Positions 5,627 through 62,170 of a stretch of DNA of 64,000 nucleotides are shown here, piece by piece (position 1 is the stretch's first letter; every line of letters begins with the position of its first letter). A program made the translations under genes and the position numbers. Source of the stretch: an uncultured Bacteroidales bacterium. GTDB lineage: Bacteria > Bacteroidota > Bacteroidia > Bacteroidales > Paludibacteraceae. The notes under the pieces are model-generated. The model saw nothing but the letters and a program-made list of their open reading frames with translations, searched no databases and was not told the DNA's origin. The stretch is taken from positions 1 to 64,000 of the forward strand of contig CAMJDT010000005.1 in the NCBI GenBank assembly GCA_946404495.1, read 5' to 3'.

Positions 5627-5658
5627 TTGATAATTGATAATTGATAATTGATATTTGA
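5624..5658. repeat. Heptamer array B, (TAATTGA)x5
   Basis: Four perfect TAATTGA units and a fifth TATTTGA. The first unit provides the folD stop codon (TAA), and the array fills the gap to the next gene, whose ATG follows three bases later. Confidence 0.95.
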
Positions 5659-5661
5659 TAT

Positions 5662-6315
5662 ATGAAAACAATGGTATTGATTCTGCTGAGTTCGGTGTGG
5701 AGTTCGTATTCGAACAAGACCTTCCACACGCTCAGTGAATGTGAGTTTAATGTGCCGGAAGAAAGGGTGATGGAGGTAGTGGATAAGTTCGTGTATGAGT
5801 TTCAGGCCGATGTGCAGGAACTCTTCACCTGGGCCTATATCGGCACGGGCAACGAGGGCAACTCGGAGCGCGATGCCCTAGCTATCAACTACAAGGAGAG
5901 TCACTACGACCCCGTGACCCGCGAGTCGTACAATATCCTGGACGTGATCGTCAACGGCAAGCCGATGTTTAAGGACCGACGAATAGGCGGTCACTACAAC
6001 GACACCGTCATCAACGGAACCTACCACTCGCGCCTGGATATCGACTACTCGGGCTCGATGCTGGATAAGGCCAACGCGCAGTTCCATATCACGCCGCTGG
6101 ACAGCGCCCGCGTACGCGTGCAACTGGAGATCAATATGCGATTCGGGTGGTTCTTCAATATATTTGTCACCAACCGCGTCTGGACCAACAATGTAGAATG
6201 GCGCGTAGGCGTCGTGCTGGATAATATCAAGGAGTACGCCGAGACGGGAACGGTGACGAAGAAGAACCAGTCGCAAGCCATTAAGAAAGTGAGGAGCAAG
6301 AGAAAGCTTGAATAA
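5662..6315 (+). CDS. Conserved exported protein of unknown function
   Basis: 217 residues. The N-terminus (MKTMVLILLSSVWSS) is a short hydrophobic stretch that could be a signal peptide. The rest looks like a soluble mixed alpha/beta domain with aromatic-rich strands (NMRFGWFFNIFVTNRVW) and a basic C-terminal tail (KKVRSKRKLE). I recognise no family. It lies between arrays B and C in the folD-M16 run and is probably cotranscribed with both. The ATG at 5662 follows directly on array B, so the native ribosome-binding region, if any, has been replaced by repeat sequence. Confidence 0.65.
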   Translation: MKTMVLILLSSVWSSYSNKTFHTLSECEFNVPEERVMEVVDKFVYEFQADVQELFTWAYIGTGNEGNSERDALAINYKESHYDPVTRESYNILDVIVNGKPMFKDRRIGGHYNDTVINGTYHSRLDIDYSGSMLDKANAQFHITPLDSARVRVQLEINMRFGWFFNIFVTNRVWTNNVEWRVGVVLDNIKEYAETGTVTKKNQSQAIKKVRSKRKLE

Positions 6316-6361
6316 ATTGATAATTGATAATTGATAATTGATATTGACAATTGATAATTGA
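6314..6361. repeat. Heptamer array C, (TAATTGA)n
   Basis: Seven units of the TAATTGA family with one 6-bp unit, filling the gap between the exported protein and the M16 peptidase gene. It is the same motif as array B, so one motif brackets the intervening gene on both sides. Confidence 0.93.
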
Positions 6362-6365
6362 TATT

Positions 6366-9266
6366 ATGAAGAAGCAATTCGTATTGCTACTGGCGGCGAT
6401 GATGGCCGTGGTAGCGCAGGGAATTAACTACCAGAGTGTAAAGGGTGATCCGACGGAGACGAGGATCTATACCCTGGACAACGGTCTGACCGTCTATCTG
6501 TCGCGCAACGACGTGAAACCGGAGATTCAGACCTACATAGCCGTACGTGCCGGCGGACAGAACGACCCCTTGGAGTCGACCGGTCTGGCACACTATCAGG
6601 AGCATATCATGTTCAAGGGTACCACCCACTACGGCACCACGGACTATGAGAAGGAGAAAGAGTTCCTGGATCAGATAGACGAGCTCTACGAGCAGTACGG
6701 CAAGACCACTGACCCCGCCGAGCGCAAGGCCATCTACAAGATGATCGACAGCGTATCGTATCTGAGTTCGCAGGTCGCTATCGCCAATGAGTTTGACAAA
6801 CTGATGCAGCTCATCGGTGCTACCGGCGTGAATGCCTACACCTCCACGGATCGCACCTGCTACCACGAGGTGATCCCTGCCGGAGAGTTGGAGCGCTGGG
6901 CGATGATCGAGAGCGACCGGTTCCAGAACCTCGTCGTACGCGGCTTCCACACCGAGCTGGAGACCGTATATGAGGAGTTCAATATGTACTCCACGATGGA
7001 TCAGGATAAGGTGCTGATGGCTATCAACCAGGCTCTCTATCCCGATATACCGTATCGTCAACACGATGTCATCGGTACGCAAGAGCACCTGAAGAATCCC
7101 AGCCTGAAGAATATCAAACGTTTCTACCAAGAGTACTACCGTCCCAACAATGTGGCTATCATCCTCGCGGGCGACTTTGAGTACGACCACGCAATGGAGA
7201 TCATTCAGCGCTACTTCGGCGACTGGAAACCTAACAAGGATATCAAGCCCTTTGAGGCTCCCGACCATAAGCCGCTCAAGGCCCACAAGGACACGATCGT
7301 GTACGGCAACGAGGCACCCGAAGTATGGCTGACTTGGACGATGCCCAATGTGAAGAGCGAGGATATACCGGCGCTGAGAATGATGGACGCCGTATTGAGC
7401 AACGGTAAGTGCGGTCTCATTGATGTGGATATCACCCAGAAACAGCGTCTCTTGGGTTCGTTTGCCGCGCTGGACGAGGGCAATGACTTCTCGGAGTTCT
7501 ATATGGTAGGTCAGGCTAAGACCAAACAGAAGAAGGAAGAGGTGAAGCAGATTCTGCTGGACGAGATCGAGAAACTCAAACGCGGTGAGTTTGACGAGGA
7601 GCTGCTGAAAGCCATCGTCAACAACAAACGCCGCTACGAGATGTCGAGCCTGGATAACAACAGCAGCCGCGTCTATACCTGCCTCAGCAGCTTCATCTAC
7701 GGTATCCCCTACGAGCAGGTGCTCTTTAGTACCGACCTTCTGGAGAAAGTGACCAAAGATGATGTGGTAAAGATGGCCAATAAGTACTTCGGCGACAACT
7801 ACGTGTGCGTCTATAAGGAGCAAGGCGAAGGCGCGCTGCCTCCCGCGATCGAGAAACCGACCATCACGCCGATCGAGATGAATCGGGATAAGACCTCGGA
7901 CTTTGTGCAGAAACTGAGCGAGATGCACGCCGAGCCGATCGAGCCGCGATTCCTGGATATGGAGAACGATGTGCTGGTCAAGGAGATGGAAGGCGGACAG
8001 GAGTTTGTGTATAAGATGAACACCCAGAACCGTTTGTTTGAGTTGACCTTCACCTTCGACAAGGGTTCGGCACAGATGCCCGAACTCGGACTGCTCTCCG
8101 ACTATATCGACTATCTCGGAACGGGCAACATGACGGCCGATGAGCGTCAGCGTCAGCTCTATATGCTGGCCTCGGAGATGTGGGTGTCGGTAGGCGAGAA
8201 CGAGACGACCGTAGGTATATACGGTCTGGAGGAGAATATGCAGCCTTCGCTGGAACTGCTGGAAGACTGGCTCCTGACCTCCACAGCCGATGAGAACGCC
8301 TTCCGCGAGGTGGTCAACGACCGCATCAAAGCGCATAACGACCTCAAGAGCGACCAGCGCTCCTGCTTCTCGGCGCTGATGCAGAGCGGTATGTACGGTC
8401 TGGATGCCCGCAAGCAACAGATCCTGACGCCCAAACAGATGAAGAAACTGTCGGGTCAGCAATTGCTCGCTACCTTCCGCGCACAACTGCCCGGTATCAA
8501 GCACGTGATCTATTACGGTGCCACCGCCGGCGACAAGGCGATGGATATGATCGTCAAGGACAGCCGTCTGCTGCAACTCGCCAACCGCGACCAGATGACC
8601 GAACCCAAACATATTCTGCCCCTTGAGATCAAGCAATCCGACGTGTGGGTAGCTCCCTATAAGGCCAATAACATCTACCTGGTGACCTATGCAAACTGGG
8701 GCGAAGTGTACACGCCGAAAGATGAAGCCGTCATCCGCCTGTTCAACGAATACTTCGACGGTTCGATGGGCGGCATCGTATTCCAGGAGATGCGCGAGAG
8801 CCGCGCGCTGTGCTATGCCTCGGGCGCGAACTTCTGCACGCCCGACTATCAGAACGAACAGAACTACTTCTACACCTTCATCCTCTCGCAGAACGATAAG
8901 CTGCAGGAGTGCGTAGAGACCTTCCGTCAGATCTGCAACGATATGCCTAAGTCGGAAGCCGCCTTTGAGCAGGCTAAGACCTCGCTACTGAAGAAAATGG
9001 AGAAGAAACGCTACGTGGGCTACGGTGCCATCAGCGCCTACCTCTACTTCCGCGACCTGGGCTGGGACCACGACTGGAACGAGGATGTCTATAAGGCCGT
9101 TCAGGAGATGACGCTGGAGGATGTGCTCAACTTTCAACGCGAGCGTATCGCTAACCGTACCTACCGCTACATGGTATTAGGCGACCCCAAGAAGATCGAC
9201 ATGAACTACCTGAAGACCAAAGGTCAGTTGAAGCAACTGAAGATTAACGATATATTTGTCTATTAA
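6366..9266 (+). CDS. M16 (insulinase/pitrilysin) family zinc metallopeptidase, exported
   Basis: 966 residues from the ATG at 6366, chosen because a clean signal peptide (MKKQFVLLLAAMMAVVAQG) starts there; the track ORF adds five residues encoded by array C. The inverted zinc motif HxxEH is present as HYQEH (H76, E79, H80), with the downstream Glu in ELETVYEEF. The protein has the two-lobed layout of M16 enzymes, the C-terminal half (about 540-966) being the non-catalytic lobe. It would degrade peptides in the periplasm. The stop overlaps the prfA start (TAATG), implying translational coupling. Confidence 0.93.
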   Translation: MKKQFVLLLAAMMAVVAQGINYQSVKGDPTETRIYTLDNGLTVYLSRNDVKPEIQTYIAVRAGGQNDPLESTGLAHYQEHIMFKGTTHYGTTDYEKEKEFLDQIDELYEQYGKTTDPAERKAIYKMIDSVSYLSSQVAIANEFDKLMQLIGATGVNAYTSTDRTCYHEVIPAGELERWAMIESDRFQNLVVRGFHTELETVYEEFNMYSTMDQDKVLMAINQALYPDIPYRQHDVIGTQEHLKNPSLKNIKRFYQEYYRPNNVAIILAGDFEYDHAMEIIQRYFGDWKPNKDIKPFEAPDHKPLKAHKDTIVYGNEAPEVWLTWTMPNVKSEDIPALRMMDAVLSNGKCGLIDVDITQKQRLLGSFAALDEGNDFSEFYMVGQAKTKQKKEEVKQILLDEIEKLKRGEFDEELLKAIVNNKRRYEMSSLDNNSSRVYTCLSSFIYGIPYEQVLFSTDLLEKVTKDDVVKMANKYFGDNYVCVYKEQGEGALPPAIEKPTITPIEMNRDKTSDFVQKLSEMHAEPIEPRFLDMENDVLVKEMEGGQEFVYKMNTQNRLFELTFTFDKGSAQMPELGLLSDYIDYLGTGNMTADERQRQLYMLASEMWVSVGENETTVGIYGLEENMQPSLELLEDWLLTSTADENAFREVVNDRIKAHNDLKSDQRSCFSALMQSGMYGLDARKQQILTPKQMKKLSGQQLLATFRAQLPGIKHVIYYGATAGDKAMDMIVKDSRLLQLANRDQMTEPKHILPLEIKQSDVWVAPYKANNIYLVTYANWGEVYTPKDEAVIRLFNEYFDGSMGGIVFQEMRESRALCYASGANFCTPDYQNEQNYFYTFILSQNDKLQECVETFRQICNDMPKSEAAFEQAKTSLLKKMEKKRYVGYGAISAYLYFRDLGWDHDWNEDVYKAVQEMTLEDVLNFQRERIANRTYRYMVLGDPKKIDMNYLKTKGQLKQLKINDIFVY

Positions 9267-14184: not shown

Positions 14185-14862
14185 GTGACCGTACTCTACG
14201 AAGACAATCATATCATAGCCGTCAACAAGACCTGTAACGAGATCGTGCAGGGCGATAAGACGGGTGACACGCCGCTGAGCGAGACCGTCAAGGCCTATAT
14301 CAAGGACAAATACCATAAGCCCGGTGAGGTTTTCTTGGGCGTGACGCATCGTCTGGACCGTCCTACGAGCGGGGTAGTGCTCTTTGCCCGTACCTCGAAG
14401 GCGCTGACGCGGCTGAACGATATGTTCCGCTCGCACGATCAGATACGCAAAACCTATTGGGCCATCGTGCAGGGCGTACCCAAAGCCGCAGAAGCCAGAC
14501 TGGAGAACTACCTCGTAAGAAACGAGAAACTCAATAAATCCTTTATCACGCGTGCCGATACCAAGGATGCCAAACTTGCGGTACTGAGTTACCGCACGCT
14601 GGCGGTAGGGGAGCGCTACTCGCTACTGGAGATCGACCTCGAGACCGGACGGCATCATCAGATCCGCTGCCAACTCGCTGCTATCGGTTGCCCGATTAAG
14701 GGCGACCTCAAGTACGGAGCGCACCGTTCGAATCCGGACGGAGGCATCTCGCTCCACGCCCGCAGTATCCGATTCATTCATCCCGTATCCAAACAGGAGA
14801 TCACCATCGAAGCTCCCGTGCCCGACGATCCCCTATGGCATACCCTAACCACTAACCTATAA
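14185..14862 (+). CDS. RluA-family 23S rRNA pseudouridine synthase
   Basis: 225 residues with the catalytic signature HRLDRPTSGVVLFARTSKA (catalytic Asp in RLD) and the ETGRHHQIRCQLA motif. It isomerises uridine to pseudouridine in structured RNA, most likely 23S rRNA. There is no S4 domain, as in short RluA/TruC-like members, so the precise target is open. Homology starts exactly at the GTG at 14185, which abuts array F. The stop codon TAA at 14860-14862 lies in array G. Confidence 0.9.
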   Translation: MTVLYEDNHIIAVNKTCNEIVQGDKTGDTPLSETVKAYIKDKYHKPGEVFLGVTHRLDRPTSGVVLFARTSKALTRLNDMFRSHDQIRKTYWAIVQGVPKAAEARLENYLVRNEKLNKSFITRADTKDAKLAVLSYRTLAVGERYSLLEIDLETGRHHQIRCQLAAIGCPIKGDLKYGAHRSNPDGGISLHARSIRFIHPVSKQEITIEAPVPDDPLWHTLTTNL

Positions 14863-14887
14863 CCTATAACCAATAACCTATAACCTT
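14846..14887. repeat. Heptamer array G, (TAACCTA)x6
   Basis: Six tandem units TAACC(TA/AC/AA/TT) with exact 7-bp phasing. The array encodes the last two codons and the stop of the pseudouridine synthase gene and continues into the intergenic space before the acyl-CoA ligase promoter. Confidence 0.95.
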
Positions 14888-17543: not shown

Positions 17544-17551
17544 TGGTGAAT

Positions 17552-17586
17552 ATCAATTATCAATTGTCAACTGTCAATTATCAACT
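17552..17586. repeat. Heptamer array H, ATCAATT/GTCAACT x5
   Basis: Five perfectly phased units between the AraC start and the yigZ 3' end. The yigZ stop codon (TGA on the minus strand, 17581-17583) lies in the last unit. Confidence 0.95.
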
Positions 17587-17958
17587 GTTCTCGAGTGCTG
17601 CTTTTGCGGCTTCGCGGTAGGCCACCATCAAGCCGCCTGTTCCCAGCAGCGTTCCGCCGAAGTAACGCACCACAACGACCAGCACCTTATCCAGATTCCG
17701 TGCATCGATGCTGCGCAGTATTGGCAGACCCGCCGTGCCGTGCGGTTCGCCGTCGTCCTTGGTGCGCCAGAGATCTTCGCCTAAGCGATAGGCGTAGCAT
17801 ACATGTCGCGCGTCGTGGTATTTCTTCTTGTACCACGCGATACGCGCCTTGGCGGCATCCTCGTCGGCGATAGGCTCTGCAAAAGCGAGAAACTTACTCC
17901 CGCGATCCTTGTAGATCCCTTTGCCGGAACCCGTGTATATTTGTCGTTCGTTGGCCAT
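17581..17958 (-). CDS. yigZ: YigZ/IMPACT family protein, N-terminal domain only
   Basis: 125 residues with the conserved IMPACT-domain sequences SKFLAFA, DARHVCYAYR, DDGEPHGTAGLPIL and VVRYFGGTLLGTGGL. The family is linked to translational control in eukaryotes; the bacterial function is not settled. E. coli YigZ is about 200 residues with a second, ferredoxin-like C-terminal domain. Here the protein stops right after the first domain, and the stop codon is supplied by array H, so the second domain may have been lost there. The gene begins about 50 bp from the tRNA-Lys gene on the same strand. Confidence 0.85.
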   Translation of the reverse strand: MANERQIYTGSGKGIYKDRGSKFLAFAEPIADEDAAKARIAWYKKKYHDARHVCYAYRLGEDLWRTKDDGEPHGTAGLPILRSIDARNLDKVLVVVVRYFGGTLLGTGGLMVAYREAAKAALENS

Positions 17959-33338: not shown

Positions 33339-34558
33339 CGCTGCAAAAGATAAGATATGTGTTGATAGGCCTCCTTCTGATAGGTGGAGTAGGGCAAAGC
33401 GTGGCGCAGAATGCGACCTCGTCTCCCTCCTCTCGATTTGGATTAGGTGAACTCAACGACAATATCCCCGGTACGTTCCGCGCTATGGGAGGGGTGAGCA
33501 CGGGTATGCGTTCGCGCGTAGCCATCAACCCCTCGCAGCCCGCTTCGTATACAGGCTGTGACACATTGGCCTTTATGATGGATGTAGCCGGTAGCGTGAT
33601 GTGGACCAATTACGGTGATGCGAACGGCAAGAAGAACAAGGCGAACGGTAACTTTGAGTACCTGATGCTGCGTTTCCCGATTTATAGGCGTTATATATCC
33701 TTCTCCGCCGGCGTGATGCCGTACTCAAGTATGGGATATGATTTCGTCTTGACGGGTGCTGTAAGCGGCTACGATTATTCTGTCACGTACTATGGCGAGG
33801 GTAATATCGCGCAAGCCTACGGGGGATTGAGTTTTAATCTCTTTGACTGGGTAGCCCTTGGCGGTAACTTCTATTATATGTTCGGTTCGCTGGAGAATAT
33901 CACGGGACTCACCTTCTCTGACGGTTCTCTTTCATCCACTGTAATGTATCGTTCGATGAGTATATCCTCTTGGCGCGGACGTTATGGCATACAGGCCTTT
34001 CATACTTTCGCCAAGAAACACGACATCGTCCTCGGTGCTATCTTCGAGTCTAAGTTGCCGTTGCGTGGCGAGTACATACAATACGAATTCAATACCTTGG
34101 ACTCCGTCTTGGTTACCAGCGAAGGCTTCGACCTGCCGATGATGTGGGGGGTAGGAGCCAGTTATACGTACGATAACCGTCTCGTTGTAGCATTCGACTA
34201 TACGCAGACCAATTGGGGGGAGGCTCGCTATTTCGGTCAGACAGGTGAGTTGCGCAATAGAGGCAAATATGCCCTCGGTGTTGAATACCGCCATAACCCG
34301 TACGGTCGTAACTATGCAGAACGTGTTCGTTGGCGCGTCGGAGCCTCGCTGCAGGATCCTTATACACCTGCTACATCTGGCAAGGACTTCACCGTTTCGA
34401 TGGGATTTGGTTTCCCGCTCCGCACCTCGGCTACGCTGTTTAACGCTACGGTCGAATATACTCGGCGAACGAGTATGGCAACAGTGCAGGAGAACGTACT
34501 GAAACTGACGCTCAATGCGGCCATCAACGAGACATGGTTTATGAAACGAAAACTTTAA
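33335..34558 (+). CDS. Predicted outer-membrane beta-barrel protein
   Basis: 407 residues with a signal peptide (LIGLLLIGGVGQSVAQ). The mature protein is made of alternating aromatic-rich strands (YISFSAGVMPYSSMGYDF, VALGGNFYYMFGSL) and ends in a strand WFMKRKL, as expected for a beta-barrel. Its position directly after coaX and before a TPR protein and lptC is, to my knowledge, a recurring Bacteroidales arrangement. The substrate is unknown. Confidence 0.75.
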   Translation: MTLQKIRYVLIGLLLIGGVGQSVAQNATSSPSSRFGLGELNDNIPGTFRAMGGVSTGMRSRVAINPSQPASYTGCDTLAFMMDVAGSVMWTNYGDANGKKNKANGNFEYLMLRFPIYRRYISFSAGVMPYSSMGYDFVLTGAVSGYDYSVTYYGEGNIAQAYGGLSFNLFDWVALGGNFYYMFGSLENITGLTFSDGSLSSTVMYRSMSISSWRGRYGIQAFHTFAKKHDIVLGAIFESKLPLRGEYIQYEFNTLDSVLVTSEGFDLPMMWGVGASYTYDNRLVVAFDYTQTNWGEARYFGQTGELRNRGKYALGVEYRHNPYGRNYAERVRWRVGASLQDPYTPATSGKDFTVSMGFGFPLRTSATLFNATVEYTRRTSMATVQENVLKLTLNAAINETWFMKRKL

Positions 34559-44110: not shown

Positions 44111-45956
44111 CTTTGCGAATGGCATCCGGTTTCTGGTCCAGTAACGGGATATTCTTCCAGTCAAATATCTCCTCAAAGTCCCAATTAGCCTTGAGCGTCA
44201 GTTTGCGTTGGAAATAGAAGACTTGCTCCGGCTGGCGTCGCGTCATATAATCACCCGTAGTCCATTTGCCGTTGCCGTCCTCATCGATAAAGAGTCTCAG
44301 GTAGTAAGTCTTAGGTGCCAGATACGTGAAGACGGTACCGTCTCTGCGGGCGCGAAGCGAACGAATCGGTTTGTCGTGTTCGTCGAGCAGTTGGATGACG
44401 GCGCGTTCGTCCCAATCCGCCAGTTGCACCTTGAGCGTAGCATATTCGTTTATATTCTTCACTTTCACCTGAAACGCTTTCTTTTCGTTCATCTTACCGT
44501 ATACATCTTCTATCGCGGCGGTGTCGGCTGATAGTTTGTATTCTGCGCCGGGCTCGAGGTGGAAGAGTACGCGCAGTCTCGTGTGCGCCGAATCCGCCAT
44601 CGTGAGGGTGAATGGAACGTCGTTCCACAATGTATCATGCTTCATCTGCAGGTGGATGCTATCCTTCTCGTAGCGAGCAATAGGTTGGGGCGAGATGATC
44701 AGGAGTGTGTCGTAGACCTCAAATCCCGACTTACCGTTACTCGATAGCTGCAGCGGCGTGCGGGCTTCCTTCTTCTGCTGATTGGCGCGCGCTTTGTCCG
44801 ACATACGCGGAGCGCGATAGATGACCTGAACTGTGTCTGTCTGCGGTTGCAACTCGTAGAGGGAGTCTGTTTTGCTGTACTGCATCTCAAATCGGATCGT
44901 ATCCATCCTGAGGGCGGCGGAATCGATGAGCCAATAGACGAGTGTGTCGTTGGTCTTATTGGCTTGCAGGAGAGTGTACTTGGTGAAGTCCACCCAGTTG
45001 GTGTCCGTAGCGAGGCTGTCGCTCTCCAATCGGAGCGCGCGCAAGGTTGGAAGTGTATCTTGTGGCGCCGAGAAATAGAGTGTGAAATAGTGCGCCTTGT
45101 CGCGTACTGCTCGTTGGAAATAGAGGCTCTTTTTGTCCTCATAGAAGAAACGCAGCAGAATATTCGACGGTTCGTAGTAGTAATATTCCACCGTAGTTAT
45201 GCTATCGGGAATAAGCGTGCTGTCGGCCGATAGGGTATCCTTCAGGTAGATAGTGTCATATACGGTCTCTATATGAATATAAGGTGTGATGAGACTGTCC
45301 AGTAGGGCGATACCTTCCCCCGGTTGGTAACAATAATCGCGGCTCACATCGTTCAGTCCGAACAGGCGATACGTGCCCGGCGGGATGTTCTTTATCGAGA
45401 ACTCGCCTTCTTTGTTGGTCTTACCGATCCGGTCGAAGGGCAGTCGTTCAAAGGCGGTGTCGTTGAGATTGCTGTGATAGCCTACTATGACGCCCGATAT
45501 CGGATTCAGGTTCTCTGCATTAATCATCATCCCGTATATCTCGAGCGAGTCAATGTGATTGCCGGTCGAGAAGGAGTAATGATAGTCGTTCAGAGGATTG
45601 CGTTCGTTGTTATCGCGCAAGGCTTCGCCAAAGTCGATGGTATAGGTTGTGCTATCCTTGAGGGGTTCCTTGAACTCGATGCGCACTTTCTTGCCCACGG
45701 CTTTGATCTCCGGAGGATACTGTTGAGGAGGCGATACCAGCACGTTTTTGCTGACGTCGTCGAGTACGATATACTCATCGAACTGAATCTCAATTCGTTT
45801 GGCATCAAAACCGAGCGTACCGTTCTCGGGAGTCTCTTTCATGACGCGTGGAGGCGTCTCATCTTTCGGACCGCCTTGCGGACCCAAACCCCTGTTCGCG
45901 CAGGCATTCATCAATGCCAGCACAACGGCAATATATATGTACCTTTCACTTTTCAC
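44085..45956 (-). CDS. Lipoprotein with SbsA Ig-like (Big_5) domain
   Basis: 623 residues. The lipobox (VVLALMNAC) follows a short N-terminus, so the mature protein is a lipoprotein. The first domain (TPPRVMKETPENGTLGFDAK ... STTYTIDFGEALRDNNERNP, quoted in parts) is the Big_5 Ig-like fold common in Bacteroidota. A later carboxypeptidase-regulatory-like strand pair is present (GEFSIKNIPPGTYRLF). The start is GTG at 45956, in array J, and overlaps the stop of the preceding S41 gene as GTGA. Confidence 0.8.
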   Translation of the reverse strand: MKSERYIYIAVVLALMNACANRGLGPQGGPKDETPPRVMKETPENGTLGFDAKRIEIQFDEYIVLDDVSKNVLVSPPQQYPPEIKAVGKKVRIEFKEPLKDSTTYTIDFGEALRDNNERNPLNDYHYSFSTGNHIDSLEIYGMMINAENLNPISGVIVGYHSNLNDTAFERLPFDRIGKTNKEGEFSIKNIPPGTYRLFGLNDVSRDYCYQPGEGIALLDSLITPYIHIETVYDTIYLKDTLSADSTLIPDSITTVEYYYYEPSNILLRFFYEDKKSLYFQRAVRDKAHYFTLYFSAPQDTLPTLRALRLESDSLATDTNWVDFTKYTLLQANKTNDTLVYWLIDSAALRMDTIRFEMQYSKTDSLYELQPQTDTVQVIYRAPRMSDKARANQQKKEARTPLQLSSNGKSGFEVYDTLLIISPQPIARYEKDSIHLQMKHDTLWNDVPFTLTMADSAHTRLRVLFHLEPGAEYKLSADTAAIEDVYGKMNEKKAFQVKVKNINEYATLKVQLADWDERAVIQLLDEHDKPIRSLRARRDGTVFTYLAPKTYYLRLFIDEDGNGKWTTGDYMTRRQPEQVFYFQRKLTLKANWDFEEIFDWKNIPLLDQKPDAIRKDASDEKRK

Positions 45957-45971
45957 TTTTCACTTTTCAAT
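45944..45971. repeat. Heptamer array J, (TTTCACT)x4
   Basis: Read on the minus strand the units are ATTGAAA, AGTGAAA, AGTGAAA, AGTGAAA. The array encodes the last residues (LKSEK) and stop of the S41 gene and the GTG start and first codons of the lipoprotein gene. Confidence 0.95.
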
Positions 45972-50523: not shown

Positions 50524-50534
50524 CAAAAATAAAT

Positions 50535-50576
50535 ATCAATTATCAATTATCAATTATCAATTGTCAATTATCAACT
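50535..50576. repeat. Heptamer array K, ATCAATT family x6
   Basis: Six phased units between the DUF4835 gene and recN. The DUF4835 stop codon (TAG, 50575-50577) begins in the last unit, and the recN ATG lies 11 bp beyond the other end. Confidence 0.95.
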
Positions 50577-51486
50577 ATTTACCTCCTTTTATCTTCTCGT
50601 ACTGTGCCTGCCTAGTGGGGTCAACGGCATTCAGGGTCTCGTATACCAGGTCTTTCTCCGAGGACGTGCCTTGCGAGAAGATATTGATCAACTCATCCGA
50701 CTTGGCATCCAAGAACACATTCACCGCATAGGTCGCCGGCCGAGCCTTGTTCGTCTCGCGCAGGATCGTGATGCCCTCGGCAATACGAGCGCGACCGTTG
50801 GCTACGTTCTGCGACATCTCGTCCAGTCCGAGACGGTGGTACTCGTAGTAGTAGTTACGAAAGTCGCGGAAGGCCTCGTCCATCAGATTATTGATGAGTG
50901 CATAGCGATTGCGGTTGCTGTCGAACGCCTTCCATCCCTTCACCTCTGCGTCGTCTATCGAAGCCGACTGAGCTGTCGAGACGATACCCTCGCACTCCTG
51001 GAAATACGGCGTACCGCCCAGGCGGGAGTAGGAGTCCATGTCATAGCCGATCAGCAGATAGCAGTAGTAGGCCACCAGTTCGGCGATATTCGTTGTAAAC
51101 ACGCCGGGAGTGTACTCCAGACGGTCGAACTCCTGATAGAGGAAGTTAAACTGCGCATCGCGCATATTGACCATCGTGGAGTAGTACGCGGTATTATATA
51201 CCGGACGGCGGCTCTGGATCTGCATCTCGCAGTGGTAGACGTTGTTATCCACCGAGTTGACGATGATCATCATGCTGCAGTCGATACGTTCCTTCTCGGC
51301 AAAGGTGAGATTGGTCCAGCGGGTCGTGTTGATATACTCCTCCAGGGTCTGGCGAAGCGTCTCATATACCGACTTGTTCGAACCCTCTATCTTGTCCGAA
51401 TTGATGGTCACCTTACAGCGCAACTCCTGAGCGGAGACGAATAGCGCCGTGAGCAGCAATATACTAACGAAGCAGAGTCTTTTCAT
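50575..51486 (-). CDS. DUF4835 family exported protein
   Basis: 303 residues with a signal peptide (RLCFVSILLLTALFVSAQ). The body matches the DUF4835 family of Bacteroidota (LRCKVTINSDKIEG, VYETLRQTLEEYINTTRWT, AYYCYLLIGYDMDSYSRLGG in parts). Some annotations link this family to the type IX secretion system (PorD); I cannot confirm that here, and no other type IX gene is in the window. It overlaps the DUF4831 gene by 23 bp. Confidence 0.85.
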   Translation of the reverse strand: MKRLCFVSILLLTALFVSAQELRCKVTINSDKIEGSNKSVYETLRQTLEEYINTTRWTNLTFAEKERIDCSMMIIVNSVDNNVYHCEMQIQSRRPVYNTAYYSTMVNMRDAQFNFLYQEFDRLEYTPGVFTTNIAELVAYYCYLLIGYDMDSYSRLGGTPYFQECEGIVSTAQSASIDDAEVKGWKAFDSNRNRYALINNLMDEAFRDFRNYYYEYHRLGLDEMSQNVANGRARIAEGITILRETNKARPATYAVNVFLDAKSDELINIFSQGTSSEKDLVYETLNAVDPTRQAQYEKIKGGK

Positions 51487-52222: not shown

Positions 52223-52239
52223 ATGATCAATAATGAAAT

Positions 52240-52281
52240 ATTCTTTAATCTTTATTCTTTAATCTTTATTCTTTATTCTTT
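52240..52281. repeat. Heptamer array L, ATTCTTT/AATCTTT x6
   Basis: Six phased units between the DUF4831 start and the aroE 3' end. It encodes the last aroE residues (NKE) and its TAA stop on the minus strand. Confidence 0.95.
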
Positions 52282-53004
52282 ATTCCAAATCTTCCACGCC
52301 TCATCTGCCTGAATGAGCAGCATCTCCATTCCGTTTTTAGTCCGTGCTCCCTTTTCGCGTCCGTTACGGAGGAAGAGCGTCTCCTCGGGATTATAGATGC
52401 AGTCGAATAGCAGATGCTCCGGCGTCAGTCCTTGATAGGGTATGTCGGGACACTCCTCCGTCTTCGGCCACATGCCTACCGGCGTACAGTTGACGATCAC
52501 TTGCCACCTCTGCATATCCTCCGCCTTCAAGTCGCTGTAAGTATAAACCTTCACGCTATCTACCAACGACCAACGACCAACGACCAACGACTTACGGCTG
52601 ACCACGTCGGTCGTCAGCCCCAACTGCTGCAAGGCGTACACGACAGCTTTGGCCGCTCCACCTGTTCCGAGCACGAGTGCGTGCGTGTCGCGCGCGTGCA
52701 AAAGAGGCTGTATAGAGCGGGTAAATCCGATCCAGTCGGTGTTGTATCCGCGCGTACCTTTCACCACGTTGACCGCTCCGATCTGTTTGGCTACGGGGTC
52801 GAGTGAACTCAGGTAGGGGAGGATAGCCTCCTTGTACGGTATCGTGACGGAATAGCCGTCGCGGTCCGTAGGCAAAGCCTCCAGGGACGCTATCTCCAGC
52901 GCCTCGTATACGGCATCTGCTCCCTCGCGCGCAATCTTATCCGTAAAGTACTGCGCCGAATAGGAGTGCCCCAAGTATTTCCCTATGAGTCCGTATCGCT
53001 TCAA
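52273..53004 (-). CDS. aroE: Shikimate dehydrogenase
   Basis: 243 residues. AroE motifs: LGHSYSAQYF at the N-terminus, catalytic K58 in SVTIPYKEA, D90 in YNTDWIGF, the NADP loop GTGGAAKAV and the C-terminal GMEMLLIQA. It reduces 3-dehydroshikimate to shikimate. The start is TTG at 53004, exactly where family homology begins, next to array N. A 12-residue segment (SLVVGRWSLVDS, about 139-150) directly after the cofactor-specificity strand VVSRK is encoded by array M and is probably an insertion. The stop is in array L. Confidence 0.93.
   Translation of the reverse strand: MKRYGLIGKYLGHSYSAQYFTDKIAREGADAVYEALEIASLEALPTDRDGYSVTIPYKEAILPYLSSLDPVAKQIGAVNVVKGTRGYNTDWIGFTRSIQPLLHARDTHALVLGTGGAAKAVVYALQQLGLTTDVVSRKSLVVGRWSLVDSVKVYTYSDLKAEDMQRWQVIVNCTPVGMWPKTEECPDIPYQGLTPEHLLFDCIYNPEETLFLRNGREKGARTKNGMEMLLIQADEAWKIWNKE
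52563..52590. repeat. Heptamer array M inside aroE, (CCAACGA)x4
   Basis: Four perfect CCAACGA units, read in aroE as TCGTTGG repeats without stops. Same motif as array A at 2597. Confidence 0.95.
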
Positions 53005-53005
53005 T

Positions 53006-53033
53006 ATTCTTTAATCTTTATTCTTTAATCTTT
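53006..53033. repeat. Heptamer array N, ATTCTTT/AATCTTT x4
   Basis: Four phased units separate tilS from aroE. On the minus strand it encodes the tilS C-terminus (KIKE) and stop and runs up to the aroE TTG start. Confidence 0.95.
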
Positions 53034-53758
53034 AAATATGCTTCTTGCATATGTTCCGCCAGCTGTGCAATGTGTTCTATCTCCGCCTTGCTGTAATGGC
53101 TCAATTCTTCGCGAATGGCATTTCGCTTATAGCGCGTATCGCTATTCGTGGAATCCTCCACCCAATTTATACCCCGTATATCCTTCAGATAGTGGCAGAT
53201 ATAATCATGCGTTGTACATAGCAGCGGCCGTATCACTCTGCAATCACCTTTCACCTTTAATTCCGTCACCGGCCACATCCCGCACATCCCTTTCAGTCCG
53301 CAACCGCGGCGCATATGCAGTAGGATGGTCTCCGCCTGGTCGTTCATGTGGTGGGCTACCGCTACGCTCTTGCATCCTCGTTCTTCCGCCAACTCGCTGA
53401 ACCACGCATAGCGCAACTCACGGGCGGCCATCTCGATGCTCTGCTTGGTCTTGCGCGCGTACGTAATGGTATCAAAGTCCCGCACATGCACCTCTATGCC
53501 TTTCTCCATCCATTTAGGACGGATCTTCAGCCGTTCGGCCAGTTCTACTGCTGTCTGTCTCACGAACTGCTCGTCCCGATCGCTCTCCTCGCCGCGCAGG
53601 TGGAAATTACAATGTGCCACCACGCACTCATAGCCGCTCCTGAGCAACACATCCAATAGTGCGATGCTGTCTGCACCTCCGCTTACGGCCGCCAGTACGC
53701 GCTCGCCTGCGCTCAGCATCTCGTGGTCACGGATATATTTTTGCACCCTGCGTAACAC
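53018..53758 (-). CDS. tilS: tRNA(Ile)-lysidine synthase, catalytic domain only
   Basis: 246 residues. The PP-loop is AVSGGADSIALLDVLL (S26-S31), followed by AHCNFHLRGEESDRDE and VAHHMNDQAETILLHM, the TilS signature; the enzyme makes lysidine at C34 of tRNA-Ile(CAU), an essential step. Family members in Bacteroidota usually exceed 400 residues with a substrate-binding C-terminal part. Here the protein ends after the N-terminal domain, and its last codons and stop come from array N. The start is GTG at 53758, next to array O. Confidence 0.88.
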   Translation of the reverse strand: MLRRVQKYIRDHEMLSAGERVLAAVSGGADSIALLDVLLRSGYECVVAHCNFHLRGEESDRDEQFVRQTAVELAERLKIRPKWMEKGIEVHVRDFDTITYARKTKQSIEMAARELRYAWFSELAEERGCKSVAVAHHMNDQAETILLHMRRGCGLKGMCGMWPVTELKVKGDCRVIRPLLCTTHDYICHYLKDIRGINWVEDSTNSDTRYKRNAIREELSHYSKAEIEHIAQLAEHMQEAYLKIKE

Positions 53759-53759
53759 C

Positions 53760-53787
53760 TTTCAACTTTCACCTTTCAATTTTCAAT
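53760..53787. repeat. Heptamer array O, TTTCAAC/TTTCACC x4
   Basis: Four phased units between the hemerythrin-LuxR gene and tilS. It encodes the end and stop of the upstream gene (EIEN) and runs into GGTGTTA, which holds the GTG start of tilS. Confidence 0.95.
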
Positions 53788-54585
53788 TTCCACAAGTCGA
53801 TTGACGATTGCATAAATGGTCAATCCCGCCGGCGAGTGGATATTCAGCTTCTGCATGATGTTCTTGCGATGCGAGATGACGGTATGCGTCGAGATGCAGA
53901 GTTTGTCGCCGATCTCTTTGTTGCTGAGCCCGTGGACCAACTCGATGAGCACCTCTTTCTCTCTTTCGCTCAGGTTCGTCTCGCCTTTCTCCGCACGCTC
54001 TTTCCGAAGCGCAGGCAGTAGGATATCGTCCTCGATGGAACAGTGTAGCGCCAACTCTTTCTCGATCTCAAATATATCCTGTAGCGCTGCATATAGCAGT
54101 CCGTTATGCCGCGGGGCGGGGTAGTATTTGATGATGAGGTTCTTGAGTTCGTTGAGTTTGGCAGCTATCTGTTCATCGTCGTGAGCGTGTTCCTGGAAAT
54201 CGCGCGCGTTCTCGTGCGCCACGTGCGTGCGCACTTCCTCTACATATTCGTCGTAGAAACGGATGATGAGTAGCGGAATCTGACTGCCTGTCTGCACGCT
54301 GCTGATGGCCTCGATGAGCTCCTGACGGATGCGGGGCAACTGGAAGTCGAGGAAGTAACGGTGAGCGTTTCTCAGGTACACCATCAGGCTCTCCACCTCG
54401 ATCCGGTCGCTGTTCGTATGATTGACCACAGCCAGAAACGTAGTGGTATGAATGCCGTTCTCGCGGCACACCTCATCGATCGTCTTGTCCTCCACACCTA
54501 ATGGCAGGCCAAACCGACTCACGATCTGCAGCGTCTCCTTCGACGACGCAATCAACTCACTTATTTTATCCTTCGCTGTATACAC
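53776..54585 (-). CDS. Hemerythrin-like domain fused to LuxR-type HTH regulator
   Basis: 269 residues. Residues 1-60 resemble the DUF542/ScdA N-terminal domain (a FGLPLGVEDKTIDEVC motif). About 65-200 form a helical HHE/hemerythrin-like region with His at 75, 121, 124, 133, 135 and 181 and acidic partners (HCSIEDD). About 206-265 is a LuxR/GerE helix-turn-helix (LSEREKEVLIELVHGLSNKE and ISTHTVISHRKNIMQKL). It would sense O2, NO or iron state by a di-iron site and regulate transcription. Start is GTG at 54585, at array P; the stop is in array O. Its place between nrdJ and tilS gives no clear target. Confidence 0.85.
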   Translation of the reverse strand: MYTAKDKISELIASSKETLQIVSRFGLPLGVEDKTIDEVCRENGIHTTTFLAVVNHTNSDRIEVESLMVYLRNAHRYFLDFQLPRIRQELIEAISSVQTGSQIPLLIIRFYDEYVEEVRTHVAHENARDFQEHAHDDEQIAAKLNELKNLIIKYYPAPRHNGLLYAALQDIFEIEKELALHCSIEDDILLPALRKERAEKGETNLSEREKEVLIELVHGLSNKEIGDKLCISTHTVISHRKNIMQKLNIHSPAGLTIYAIVNRLVEIEN

Positions 54586-54586
54586 C

Positions 54587-54621
54587 TTTCACTTTTCACC
54601 TTTCACTTTTCACCTTTCAAC
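54587..54621. repeat. Heptamer array P, TTTCACT/TTTCACC x5
   Basis: Five phased units fill the gap between nrdJ and the hemerythrin-LuxR gene. They contain the nrdJ stop (TGA, 54617-54619) and run up to the GTG start of the next gene. Confidence 0.95.
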
Positions 54622-57226
54622 TTCCGCACTTGCTATACCCGCACTCGCGGCAATGCATGCATCCCTCCTCAAATACGAGCGGCGAACCGCAGTTGGGGCA
54701 TACCTGTCCTTGCACCACGGTACCGTCTTGTATGTATTTCTTCAGGGCGCGTTCTACACCCACTTTCCAGCTATTGATACTCTCCGAATCCATCTGCAGG
54801 CCGCTGATCATCTTGATGACCTGGTCGATCGGCATACCGTAGCGCAGCACGCCGGAGATGAGTTTGGCGTAGTTCCAGAACTCCTTGTCGAACTTATAGC
54901 TCAGTCCCTCCATCGTGGTCTTGAAGCCGCGGGCGTTGACGAACTGGAAGTCGTAGCGCTTCGTGCCGTCCTCTTGTACCACGCGGATGATCTTACCCTT
55001 CGTAACGGACTTAGGCAGCAGCAGTCCCTCTTCGTCGTCGGCCAGACCCGTGAAGATCTCGTACGGCATACCGTCCTTCAGGCCGACAAAGGCGATCCAT
55101 TTGTCCTTGTTGTTCTGGAATCGAACGACATCGCACTCCAGCTCGGCCGGACGTATCCGCACTTTGTTATCGAAGCATACGCAGTTCGTTCCTTCGCCTT
55201 TCGCCTTTTCGCCATTCGCCTTTTCGCCATTATCGCCTTTCGTCTTCTTCTTCGAGATACCCTCTAATACATTACCCCGGCTGCCGTCGCGATAGACCGT
55301 GCAACCCTTGCAACCGCATCGCCAGGCTTCCTCATAGAGTTTGCCTACCAGCTCTTCGCTCACGTCGTTAGGCAGGTTGATGGTGACGGAGATGGAGTGG
55401 TCCACCCATTTCTGAATCGCACCTTGCATCCGCACCTTGGCCAGCCAATCTACGTCATTGGCCGTAGCGTGGTAGTAGGGCGACTCCTTGACGAGCGCCT
55501 CCACCTCTTCCGTCGTATAACGATGTGCGGGGTCGTAGGTATGTCCGTTGGCGTTCATCCAGGTGATGAAATTATGGTGGAACACGATGTATTCCTCAAA
55601 GCTGTCGCCTACGTCGTCTACGTAGTCCACATGCACGTTCTTATCGTTGGGGTTGACTTTCCTGCGACGACGATAGACGGGTTGGAACACGGGTTCGATA
55701 CCGCTCGTAGTCTGCGTCATGATGCTGGTCGTGCCCGTAGGAGCGATCGTCAGGCAGGCGATGTTGCGCCGGCCTACCTTCACCATCTCTTCGTACAATG
55801 CCGGATCGGCTTCTCTCAGCCGCTGTATATAGGGATTATTCTCCTCGCGTTTGGCGTCGTAGATCTTAAAGGCGCCGCGCTCTTTGGCCATCTCTACGCT
55901 GCTGCGATAGGCGGCCAGCGCGAGGGTCTTATGTACCTCCACGCTGAATCGTGTAGCCTCGTCCGTACCGTAGGTCAGACCCATTGCGGCCAGCATATCG
56001 CCTTCCGCCGTGGTGCCTACACCCGTACGACGACCCTGCGAGGTCTTCTTCATGATCTTCTCCCACAGCTCCCGTTCTACGCGTTTGATCACATCGTCCT
56101 CGGGGTCGTTGGCGATCTTGAGTAGGATCTTATCGATCTTCTCCATCTCCAGGTCGATGATATCGTCCATCATGCGTTGGGCGTAGCCCACGTGCTTGCG
56201 GAATAGCTCCCAGTCGAACTCGGCCTCCTTGGTGAAGGGGTTCTTGACGTAGGAATAGAGGTTGATAGCCAGCAGTCTGCAGCTGTCGTACGGACACAAG
56301 GGTATCTCGCCGCAGGGATTGGTGCTGACGGTACGGTAGCCGAGGTCGGCATAGCAATCCGGCACGCTCTCGCGGATGATCGTGTCCCAAAACAGCACAC
56401 CCGGTTCGGCACTCTTCCAGGCATTGTGGATGATCTTCTTCCACAGCGCCTTGGCGTCGATCTCTTTCTTATACAACGGATTATTGGAGAAGATAGGGTA
56501 CTCCTGTTGGTATCTGCCGTCGGCAAAGACGGCTTCCATAAAATCGTCGTGTATCTTGACGCTCACGTTAGCGCCCGTTACCTTGCCTTGCTCCATCTTG
56601 GCATCGATGAAGGCCTCGCTATCGGGGTGCTTGATGCTCACGGTCAACATCAGCGCGCCGCGTCTGCCGTCCTGTGCTACCTCGCGCGTCGAGTTGCTGT
56701 AGCGCTCCATGAAGGGCACAATACCCGTACTCGTCAGCGCCGAGTTCTTCACCGGACTGCCTTTCGGACGAAGATGACTGAGGTCGTGACCTACACCGCC
56801 GCGACGTTTCATCAGTTGCACCTGCTCCTCGTCCAATTGGATGATGCCACCGTAGGAGTCTGCCTCGCTGTCCTGACCGATTACAAAGCAGTTACTCAGG
56901 CTTGCTACCTGAAAGTCATTACCTATACCCGTCATCGGACTGCCTTGCGGCACGATGTAGCGGAAGTCCTTCATCAACTCATACAGCTCCTCCTCACTCA
57001 GCGGATGACTCTCGCCTTTCGTCCTCTTGCCATATTTGGCCTCTATGCGACCGATCTCACGAGCCATGCGGTGGTGCATATCGTCGGGCGTGAGCTCATA
57101 CAGGTGCCCGTAACTGTCTTTTAATGCGTACTTGGTGCTCCAAACGCGAGCGGCTAACTCGTCTCCCCGGAAGTACGCGACCGATGCCTCTTCGGCTTCT
57201 TTCTGTGTATATGTTGTATTTTCCAT
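54617..57226 (-). CDS. nrdJ: Coenzyme B12-dependent (class II) ribonucleotide reductase
   Basis: About 869 residues from the ATG at 57226 (MENTTYTQKEAEEAS), where family homology begins; the track uses an ATG 12 codons earlier. Features: NPCGEIPLCPYDSC with an active-site Cys, TIAPTGTTSIMT, and a C-terminal zinc ribbon (CPNCG ... CMHCRECG). The enzyme reduces ribonucleotides with adenosylcobalamin and needs no oxygen. A lysine/glycine-rich segment GDNGEKANGEKAKGEG is encoded by array Q. No cobalamin riboswitch fits in the leader of about 50 nt. Confidence 0.94.
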   Translation of the reverse strand: MENTTYTQKEAEEASVAYFRGDELAARVWSTKYALKDSYGHLYELTPDDMHHRMAREIGRIEAKYGKRTKGESHPLSEEELYELMKDFRYIVPQGSPMTGIGNDFQVASLSNCFVIGQDSEADSYGGIIQLDEEQVQLMKRRGGVGHDLSHLRPKGSPVKNSALTSTGIVPFMERYSNSTREVAQDGRRGALMLTVSIKHPDSEAFIDAKMEQGKVTGANVSVKIHDDFMEAVFADGRYQQEYPIFSNNPLYKKEIDAKALWKKIIHNAWKSAEPGVLFWDTIIRESVPDCYADLGYRTVSTNPCGEIPLCPYDSCRLLAINLYSYVKNPFTKEAEFDWELFRKHVGYAQRMMDDIIDLEMEKIDKILLKIANDPEDDVIKRVERELWEKIMKKTSQGRRTGVGTTAEGDMLAAMGLTYGTDEATRFSVEVHKTLALAAYRSSVEMAKERGAFKIYDAKREENNPYIQRLREADPALYEEMVKVGRRNIACLTIAPTGTTSIMTQTTSGIEPVFQPVYRRRRKVNPNDKNVHVDYVDDVGDSFEEYIVFHHNFITWMNANGHTYDPAHRYTTEEVEALVKESPYYHATANDVDWLAKVRMQGAIQKWVDHSISVTINLPNDVSEELVGKLYEEAWRCGCKGCTVYRDGSRGNVLEGISKKKTKGDNGEKANGEKAKGEGTNCVCFDNKVRIRPAELECDVVRFQNNKDKWIAFVGLKDGMPYEIFTGLADDEEGLLLPKSVTKGKIIRVVQEDGTKRYDFQFVNARGFKTTMEGLSYKFDKEFWNYAKLISGVLRYGMPIDQVIKMISGLQMDSESINSWKVGVERALKKYIQDGTVVQGQVCPNCGSPLVFEEGCMHCRECGYSKCGS
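55194..55240. repeat. Repeat array Q inside nrdJ (AATGGCG-related, 15-bp period)
   Basis: Two perfect copies of the 15-mer CGCCTTTTCGCCATT (55202-55231), flanked by partial units spaced 7-9 bp. On the coding strand it reads AATGGCGAAAAGGCG, related to array I. The 15-bp period keeps the frame and yields the repeat NGEKA. Confidence 0.85.
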
Positions 57227-57281
57227 ATCTATATTATAGGTGTTTTCCAATCCATCTTTCATTCAAGCACAAAATGCGCTG

Positions 57282-57313: not shown

Positions 57314-57336
57314 CATTCTTCGAAAAAAAATTAAAT

Positions 57337-57364
57337 TTCAATTGTCAATTATCAATTATCAATT
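57337..57364. repeat. Heptamer array R, TCAATT family x4
   Basis: Units TTCAATT, GTCAATT, ATCAATT, ATCAATT lie in the divergent region where the -33 element of the promoter at 57373 would be expected. Confidence 0.92.
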
Positions 57365-57372
57365 ATTTTTCG

Positions 57373-61217: not shown

Positions 61218-62170
61218 GCGAACTGGAATATACGGAGCACGGCTGGAGGATGACGACCGATAAGGAGCGGCATCATCGAAGTAATCGCTGGGACTATAAG
61301 GGAGAAGGCGTTTACCATCTGACGATGACGGTAGCGGAGCGTTTCCCGCTATTTGGAGAGTTGGTCGGCGATAGTCCTGACGAGGCGCGGATAGATCTAA
61401 ATCCATTTGGTAAACGCATCGAGCGTATGTTACGCGATCTGCCGTCGTTCTATGCTTCTAAGGATATCGATATAAAAGTGCTCGCAGTACAGGTGATGCC
61501 GGATCATATACATCTGGTAATACAGGTGTTGCGACCTATGAAGCGGTCGGTCGGTGAGATTGTTCGTAGCTTCAAAAGCGCCGCGACATCGCTCTATAAA
61601 CGGGAATATGATATCATAGCAGCTAATGGCGGCAATAATGCCGCCAAATGGAACGCCTCTGTAGAGCGAGAGAATCCTATCATAGCAGCTAATGGCGGCA
61701 ATAATGCCGCCAAATGGAACGCCTCCTCAGAGCGAGAGAATCCGCCGCAGGCGGTCGTTGCATTTGCTTGCATTTTTGCGAGCATTGGCTCACTGTGGCA
61801 ATCAATACCGGCCGGATATCATGATCGATTTTTATATGAGCGAGGCCAATTGCGACATATGATCGACTATGTCCACGACAACCCCCGTCGGCTGTGGCTC
61901 AAGCGCGCCAATCCCGACCTCTTCCGTATCAAGCAGGACAAACTCATCGCTAATACCCCCTGCCTCGTATTAGGCAATATCTTCCTCGCCGAAAATCCCC
62001 AGAAGGCGGTCTTGCAATGCTCGCGCCGCATGTCGCAGGCCGAGATAGATGCCCGTAAAGCCGACTGCCTTAGCGCTGCTGCCAACGGCACCGTCTTTGT
62101 CAGCGGCGCCATCTCGGAGGGCGAGAAGCAGATCTGCCGCGCATTGCGCGAGGGGGGGGGTATCAATTGA
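61214..62170 (+). CDS. RAYT-type (REP-associated) Y1 transposase, frameshifted
   Basis: 318 residues. The HUH motif is VMPDHIHLVIQV, and a candidate catalytic Tyr follows in SLYKREY; the C-terminal helix YVHDNPRRLW matches RAYT proteins. Between them lies a 44-residue tandem duplication (IIAANGGNNAAKWNAS... twice) whose DNA contains REP-like hairpins. The ORF ends early in a nine-G run (62152-62160) as REGGGIN-stop; the next frame carries the missing C-terminal domain (see 62167-62427). Start overlaps the R-M gene by 4 bp, so both are probably cotranslated. It may be domesticated or phase-variable. Confidence 0.82.
   Translation: MSELEYTEHGWRMTTDKERHHRSNRWDYKGEGVYHLTMTVAERFPLFGELVGDSPDEARIDLNPFGKRIERMLRDLPSFYASKDIDIKVLAVQVMPDHIHLVIQVLRPMKRSVGEIVRSFKSAATSLYKREYDIIAANGGNNAAKWNASVERENPIIAANGGNNAAKWNASSERENPPQAVVAFACIFASIGSLWQSIPAGYHDRFLYERGQLRHMIDYVHDNPRRLWLKRANPDLFRIKQDKLIANTPCLVLGNIFLAENPQKAVLQCSRRMSQAEIDARKADCLSAAANGTVFVSGAISEGEKQICRALREGGGIN
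61613..61754 (+). repeat. 66-bp tandem duplication with REP-like hairpins inside the RAYT gene
   Basis: Units 61613-61678 and 61679-61744 differ at about four positions. Each contains GGCGGCA-ATAA-TGCCGCC, a 7-bp stem with a 4-nt loop, and a third hairpin CCGCC-GCA-GGCGG follows at 61742-61754. Confidence 0.93.
62152..62160 (+). repeat. Homopolymer G9 at the RAYT frameshift
   Basis: Nine consecutive G. With seven (or ten) G the RAYT frame would continue into the 62167 ORF; with nine it stops at 62170. Confidence 0.9.

Follow-up and report, generated by a model that had tools for sequence, protein, structure and literature searches.

The closest described systems are the hemerythrin/CdhR loci of Bacteroidota, in which a gene for a hemerythrin-domain protein is followed by one for the LuxR-type regulator CdhR. 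Such pairs are found in Porphyromonas gingivalis (PG1236-37) and Bacteroides thetaiotaomicron (BT_0519-520) (PMC10434189, Fig. 3E). Iron depletion induces both of these split loci, 16-20-fold in B. thetaiotaomicron (PMC10434189). In Prevotella intermedia, the hemerythrin domain and CdhR are fused in one protein, PIN17_RS10465 (PMC10434189). CdhR reportedly activates the hmu heme-uptake genes, and cdhR and hmu are both down under microaerophilic conditions (PMC10101095). DNA-binding fusions go unmentioned in a review of hemerythrin sensors (PMC9388753), and no operator for the hemerythrin/CdhR system was found in the open-access literature searched. The fusion architecture is already known (PMC10434189); the candidate operator and the predicted Feo/porin-imelysin regulon described here are new. 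Iron sensing in Bacteroidales is poorly known.

Three further systems are related in part. The RIC proteins YtfE and ScdA (TIGR03652) have a four-helix hemerythrin-like fold, and the iron ligands of YtfE are H84, H129, E133, H160, H204, and E208 (PMC9268430). NarL, of the NarL/FixJ regulators, recognizes 7-2-7 sites, e.g., TACCCCTAAAGGGGTA, and activates from about -40 to -49; napF and yeaR are activated from near -43 (PMC4549865). The plant BTS/BTSL E3 ligases carry a hemerythrin-type di-iron domain that is proposed as an iron sensor for iron uptake (PMC12022348).

The window analyzed here is a stretch of 64,000 nucleotides from an uncultured Bacteroidales bacterium of the Paludibacteraceae (contig CAMJDT010000005.1). 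It encodes a hemerythrin-like domain fused to a LuxR-type regulator (Table 1) and, by the published locus description, matches the CdhR loci in joining these two parts, adjacent or fused. It differs from them in being Paludibacteraceae-like, in lacking a receiver domain, and in having a trimmed helix 2-helix 3 hairpin; a candidate operator and a Feo/porin-imelysin regulon are proposed for the window type. With RIC proteins, it shares the four-helix fold, the six ligand types, and an ScdA_N-like N-terminus, but the DFCCGG cysteine motif of that stretch is absent (LGVEDK/LGVGDK stands in its place), an HTH is added, and no repair role is indicated. Against TIGR03652, the window protein scores 23.4 bits, far from the curated cut-off of 204.7, and split and long-loop members score 46-52 bits. 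The GerE HTH and a 7-2-7 candidate operator near -43 are NarL/FixJ-like; unlike those regulators, the fusion has no phosphorylatable receiver, and the receiver of the split partners is degenerate. The output of plant BTS/BTSL is ubiquitin ligation, whereas that predicted for the window type is DNA binding. The fusion is probably a one-component iron-responsive activator of the Bacteroidota CdhR/hemerythrin type, switching on iron-uptake genes when iron is low.

Table 1. Features of the fusion gene and its neighbors, in window coordinates
Feature	Position	Strand	Basis
tilS-like gene, downstream of fusion gene	53018..53758	(-)	TIGR02432
CDS, hemerythrin-like domain + GerE/LuxR HTH fusion, 269 aa	53776..54585	(-)	start matches aligned start of relatives
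GerE/LuxR HTH, residues 204-259	53809..53976	(-)	Pfam GerE
Hemerythrin-like four-helix domain, residues 64-199	53989..54396	(-)	Pfam PF01814; AF2 pLDDT; PDB fold matches
E185 codon, predicted bridging ligand (YtfE E208)	54031..54033	(-)	107/107 gap-free rows
H181 codon, predicted ligand (YtfE H204)	54043..54045	(-)	107/107 gap-free rows
H133 codon, predicted helix-3 ligand (YtfE H160)	54187..54189	(-)	placed by conservation
Trimmed helix 2-helix 3 turn, residues 127-132	54190..54207	(-)	alignment; model DSSP loop 127-132
E125 codon, predicted bridging ligand (YtfE E133)	54211..54213	(-)	108/108
H121 codon, predicted ligand (YtfE H129)	54223..54225	(-)	108/108
H75 codon, predicted ligand (YtfE H84 counterpart)	54361..54363	(-)	His in 108/108
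ScdA_N-like N-terminal stretch, residues 1-57	54415..54585	(-)	profile alignment to ScdA; conservation
Spacer between fusion gene and nrdJ, 31 bp, in heptamer tandem-repeat tract	54586..54616	(-)	
nrdJ, AdoCbl-dependent class II RNR	54617..57262	(-)	TIGR02504, 5e-175

The reading frame proposed by the first-pass annotation is upheld by the ORF call, Pfam, and the relatives; it opens with a GTG codon at 54583-54585 and closes with a stop codon at 53776-53778. Pfam recognizes GerE with an E-value of 6.3e-19 (67.8 bits, cut-off 23.5) and Hemerythrin with one of 5e-7, above the curated cut-off. Each is the single match to its family in the genome (2.13 Mb, 87% complete). An artefact can be dismissed: full-length fusions recur across most of the genus's genomes, and 71 of the 108 loci examined have the fused form. 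Among named relatives, the closest belong to the Paludibacteraceae and to other uncultured Bacteroidales sampled from gut, rumen, and faeces; the nearest of these, from horse faeces, is 68% identical. The first-pass annotation had also assigned an ScdA_N domain. A profile of the relatives does align with the whole of Staphylococcus aureus ScdA, including its N-terminal domain (1.3e-12), and C40 is conserved in the stretch; the Pfam search of the fusion protein returned no ScdA_N match, and the cysteine motif is the part of the likeness that is missing.

The 108 loci form one homologous set, in which the other 37 are split, with the two genes adjacent and often overlapping. On a quick tree, the direction of the fused/split transition is not inferable; the label changes four times, three of the changes being forced by well-supported branches, and the transition therefore occurred repeatedly. 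Split regulators have a receiver-like N-terminus that falls below the Pfam Response_reg cut-off and, by our own reading of the motif, an NP-type motif at the expected position of the phosphoacceptor Asp. The fusions have no receiver domain. The metal domain occupies the receiver's former place, which argues for a sensory role.

The fold and metal site resemble those of RIC proteins. The AF2 model has a pLDDT of 90.8 at full length; the full-length Foldseek TM to YtfE is low owing to domain orientation, and the hemerythrin domain was for this reason modelled alone (residues 60-199, pLDDT 92.0). The eleven best PDB matches of the domain model are all YtfE/ScdA (probability 0.99-1.00, TM 0.61-0.72 by query length, E 0.07-0.3), an assignment that rests on ranking and probability, not on the E-value. 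YtfE/ScdA are thus the nearest solved structures, and the earlier proposal of a di-iron-type hemerythrin domain and a DNA-binding domain in one cytosolic protein is supported. The refuting condition set by the first-pass annotation, ligand residues that fail to cluster in a model, was addressed indirectly, through residue conservation, alignment to YtfE/ScdA, and the fold match. The relatives' profile matches YtfE at 8e-8, and the six YtfE/ScdA-type di-iron ligands are kept, invariant or equivalent, across the 108 fused and split relatives; H75 aligns with YtfE H84 at a register offset of one residue. Four of the ligands named in the first-pass annotation, H75, H121, H181, and E185, are invariant, as is E125, which its list lacked. 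The choice it left between H133 and H135 falls to H133, which is His in all short-loop members shown, H135 being A, R, D, or T in some. The inspected long-loop and split sequences likewise carry the helix-3 His, slightly displaced locally in a few of them (e.g., L063). H159 was rejected as the helix-3 ligand because it is not conserved.

The window protein belongs to a short-loop clade (31 rows, 98 SH-aLRT) in which the hairpin between helices 2 and 3 is about 22 residues shorter than in long-loop members by alignment. The trimming could weaken the metal site. E125 and H133 are separated by eight residues in this clade vs. 27 in YtfE, and the His lies three residues ahead of a conserved DD pair, four elsewhere. 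With so many residues gone beside two ligands and the His displaced, the site may have been destroyed or changed, leaving a structural dimerisation module or a one-metal binder. That outcome is doubtful: the six ligand-type residues are conserved in the short-loop clade while the adjacent H135 drifts, and the model is still a confident four-helix bundle.

A 16-bp inverted repeat, TMCCYAWWWWTRGGKA, with the NarL-type 7-2-7 layout is found upstream of the hemerythrin-like (Hr) genes. It is also found ahead of FeoAB, OprB-FeoAB, and porin-imelysin operons and TonB receptors. Upstream regions of Hr genes served to seed, by eye, a palindromic 16-bp PWM, which was then trained on the fused loci. It exceeds the 95th percentile of background in 28 of the 61 fused upstream regions, which are its training set, and in 6 of 37 held-out split regions, where 5% is expected. 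Above 15.5 bits, there are 31 matches in 913 kb vs. 1 in reversed sequence, most of them directly upstream of an Hr gene, FeoAB, a porin, or OprB-FeoAB. Exact consensus sites in 41 genomes number 28 vs. 10 in the reversed control (19 vs. 3 within the genus); of the 21 inspected, the majority precede a gene for FeoB, OprB, a porin, a TonB receptor, or the regulator. Within the window, PWM matches at 35197 and 42981 are weak, lie inside coding sequence, and were treated as chance.

The candidate operator has a fixed place in porin promoters. All porin homologues in 61 genomes were taken independently of the motif, and 30 were fetched; the PWM scores an operator in 24 of the 30 promoters; three of the porin promoters lie in intergenic regions that also belong to training loci. 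A TAnnTTTG -7 box starts exactly 23 bp past the operator in 22 of the 24 scoring promoters, and the operator abuts the -33 region. The same 23-bp spacing recurs at many FeoAB promoters in other, distant families; at the promoters of the Hr genes themselves, the spacing is variable. In Bacteroidetes promoters, transcription starts about 5-6 bp beyond the -7 box, and the operator centre would therefore lie near -43. This predicted position is that of a class II activator. An apparent group of long-loop genomes without an operator was an artefact of the strict consensus; the PWM scores 8 of 9 long-loop porin promoters.

The composite of operator, 23-bp spacing, and -7 box was found at 71 sites in 37 genomes of the genus vs. 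3 in the control. The genome of the window has two composite sites, one 81 bp ahead of a porin-imelysin-DHOR-CcsA operon (contig C32, operator at 7142-7157) and one just ahead of FeoB followed by a TonB receptor (contig C4, operator at 33549-33564). FeoAB lies within 6 kb of 13 of the named loci and the porin/imelysin/DHOR group within 6 kb of 16, whether the regulator is fused or split, and SufS and FecCD are also among the neighbors of hemerythrin loci. FeoB-like proteins of the genus have a shortened, divergent GTPase domain that FeoB_N matches partially or below cut-off, with Gate and FeoB_C intact, and the candidate operator lies upstream of their genes (e.g., L207:1118-2620). A porin-like outer-membrane family heads the imelysin-DHOR-CcsA operons (e.g., L138:5640-7061); it has no Pfam or NCBIfam match and is possibly a new iron-related porin. 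At L119/L186 and L185, the candidate operator with its 23-bp spacing precedes DUF1858-like (by eye) and ferredoxin-like genes, which suggests a regulon wider than uptake.

The presence of sites follows that of the regulator. The sequences are mostly MAGs. Leaving aside the remnant in G001, the regulator is present in full or in part in 34 genus genomes, each of which has at least one composite site; none was found in G005 and G017, which lack the regulator, or in G001. Fisher's test of regulator against site gives a p-value of 0.0045, or 0.0001 with G001 counted as lacking the regulator; Fisher and binomial values here are guides only, the relatives not being independent. G005, G017, and G001 also lack the porin operon, so the co-occurrence may partly reflect loss of the targets.

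The sites could instead be those of a different iron regulator, from the Fur family or of a kind not yet known, with the Hr-LuxR gene merely one of its targets. Fur-family proteins occur in 54 of 61 relatives, and the regulator gene itself often bears a site, as a target would. This reading is rather unlikely. The presence of Fur shows no link with composite sites (p = 0.36): the window's genome, G008, G010, and G021 have no Fur match yet have 2-3 sites, and G017, 98% complete, has Fur, no Hr-LuxR, and no composite site. Moreover, in its 7-2-7 layout and TACCC half-sites, the candidate operator resembles NarL/GerE sites. The fusion is the only GerE protein found in the window's genome, which would make it the obvious candidate to recognize a NarL-type site. 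No Fur, DtxR, or high-scoring FeoB was found in that genome at 87% completeness; its FeoB, with the shortened GTPase part, was missed by the FeoB_N cut-off. Replacement of Fur by the fusion is not claimed, the assembly being 87% complete and most relatives having Fur.

The hemerythrin domain could also sense O2, NO, or redox state, in which case the regulator would adjust iron uptake, and perhaps nrdJ as well, to oxidative or nitrosative conditions. Bacterial di-iron hemerythrin domains sense O2 and redox (PMC9388753), RIC proteins respond to nitrosative stress (PMC9268430), and the microaerophilic decrease of cdhR and hmu (PMC10101095) points the same way. The two kinds of sensing are compatible, both being shown by plant BTS hemerythrin domains (PMC12022348). 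As the main signal, O2 or NO is nevertheless unlikely, since the neighbors and predicted targets concern iron uptake, with little sign of O2 or NO detoxification, and the reported transcription follows iron depletion (PMC10434189). Iron status is the better-supported signal.

For an iron-responsive activator, the following mechanism can be proposed. The di-iron site of the hemerythrin-like domain would be labile and, at low cell iron, empty or altered, which would free the LuxR/NarL-type HTH. The freed HTH would dimerise on the 16-bp 7-2-7 repeat, and the bound dimer would recruit RNA polymerase, acting in the class II manner on iron-uptake operons, in the window's genome the porin-imelysin-DHOR-CcsA and FeoB-TonB receptor operons. 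Redox or NO effects on the di-iron site are possible. Across most of the order, a pair of neighboring genes would fill this role, one encoding a free-standing hemerythrin-like protein and the other a LuxR protein with a degenerate receiver; in the fusion, the receiver would have been dropped and the metal domain put in its place. Operator binding by the fusion, activation, and iron occupancy as the signal are what we infer from these patterns. The broader proposal is an evenly balanced one: a new class of iron-responsive transcription factors outside Fur/DtxR, in which a hemerythrin di-iron domain senses cell iron and, alone or with a dead-receiver partner, uses a class II operator at a fixed position to switch on Feo, porin-imelysin, and TonB uptake genes throughout Bacteroidota. 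If true, hemerythrin domains are iron sensors in bacteria, as in plants. The conserved operator, fixed promoter geometry, named regulon, and single-chain fusion make the question directly testable.

The gene upstream of the fusion was correctly described in the first-pass annotation as an oxygen-independent RNR and is NrdJ. The link to this RNR, from which the annotation drew a hint of redox-controlled regulation, is not supported. Neither an operator nor an obvious separate promoter lies in the 31-bp spacer upstream of the fusion gene, which is therefore probably co-transcribed with nrdJ. The short spacing and shared strand are what a regulator dedicated chiefly to this RNR might show. Such a role is very improbable: among the relatives' loci, nrdJ is adjacent in no case other than the window and L033, the relative nearest to it, and the region upstream of nrdJ has no operator, its best PWM score being -1.3. 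The arrangement looks like a local rearrangement rather than nrdJ regulation. The tilS-like gene is kept downstream of the fusion gene in several genus members.

Short tandem arrays are scattered through the window, at 1880-1952, 5623-5660, 6315-6379, 14846-14886, 17551-17588, 45944-45969, 50534-50578, 52239-52285, 53759-53790, 54583-54623, and 57334-57366. Their period is mostly 7 bp, the units differ (TATCAAT, TTTCACT, TAACCTA, TATTCTT), and they are largely intergenic; for the one unit tested, the arrays are far above shuffled expectation. A similar repeat, TTCGCCTT, lies within nrdJ at 55193-55246, where it encodes an extra lysine/glycine/glutamate-rich segment of the protein. Loops of the relatives' hemerythrin-LuxR proteins contain similar inserts of repeat-like sequence (e.g., L022). 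A 66-bp unit is present in two copies, 95% identical, at 61612-61743.
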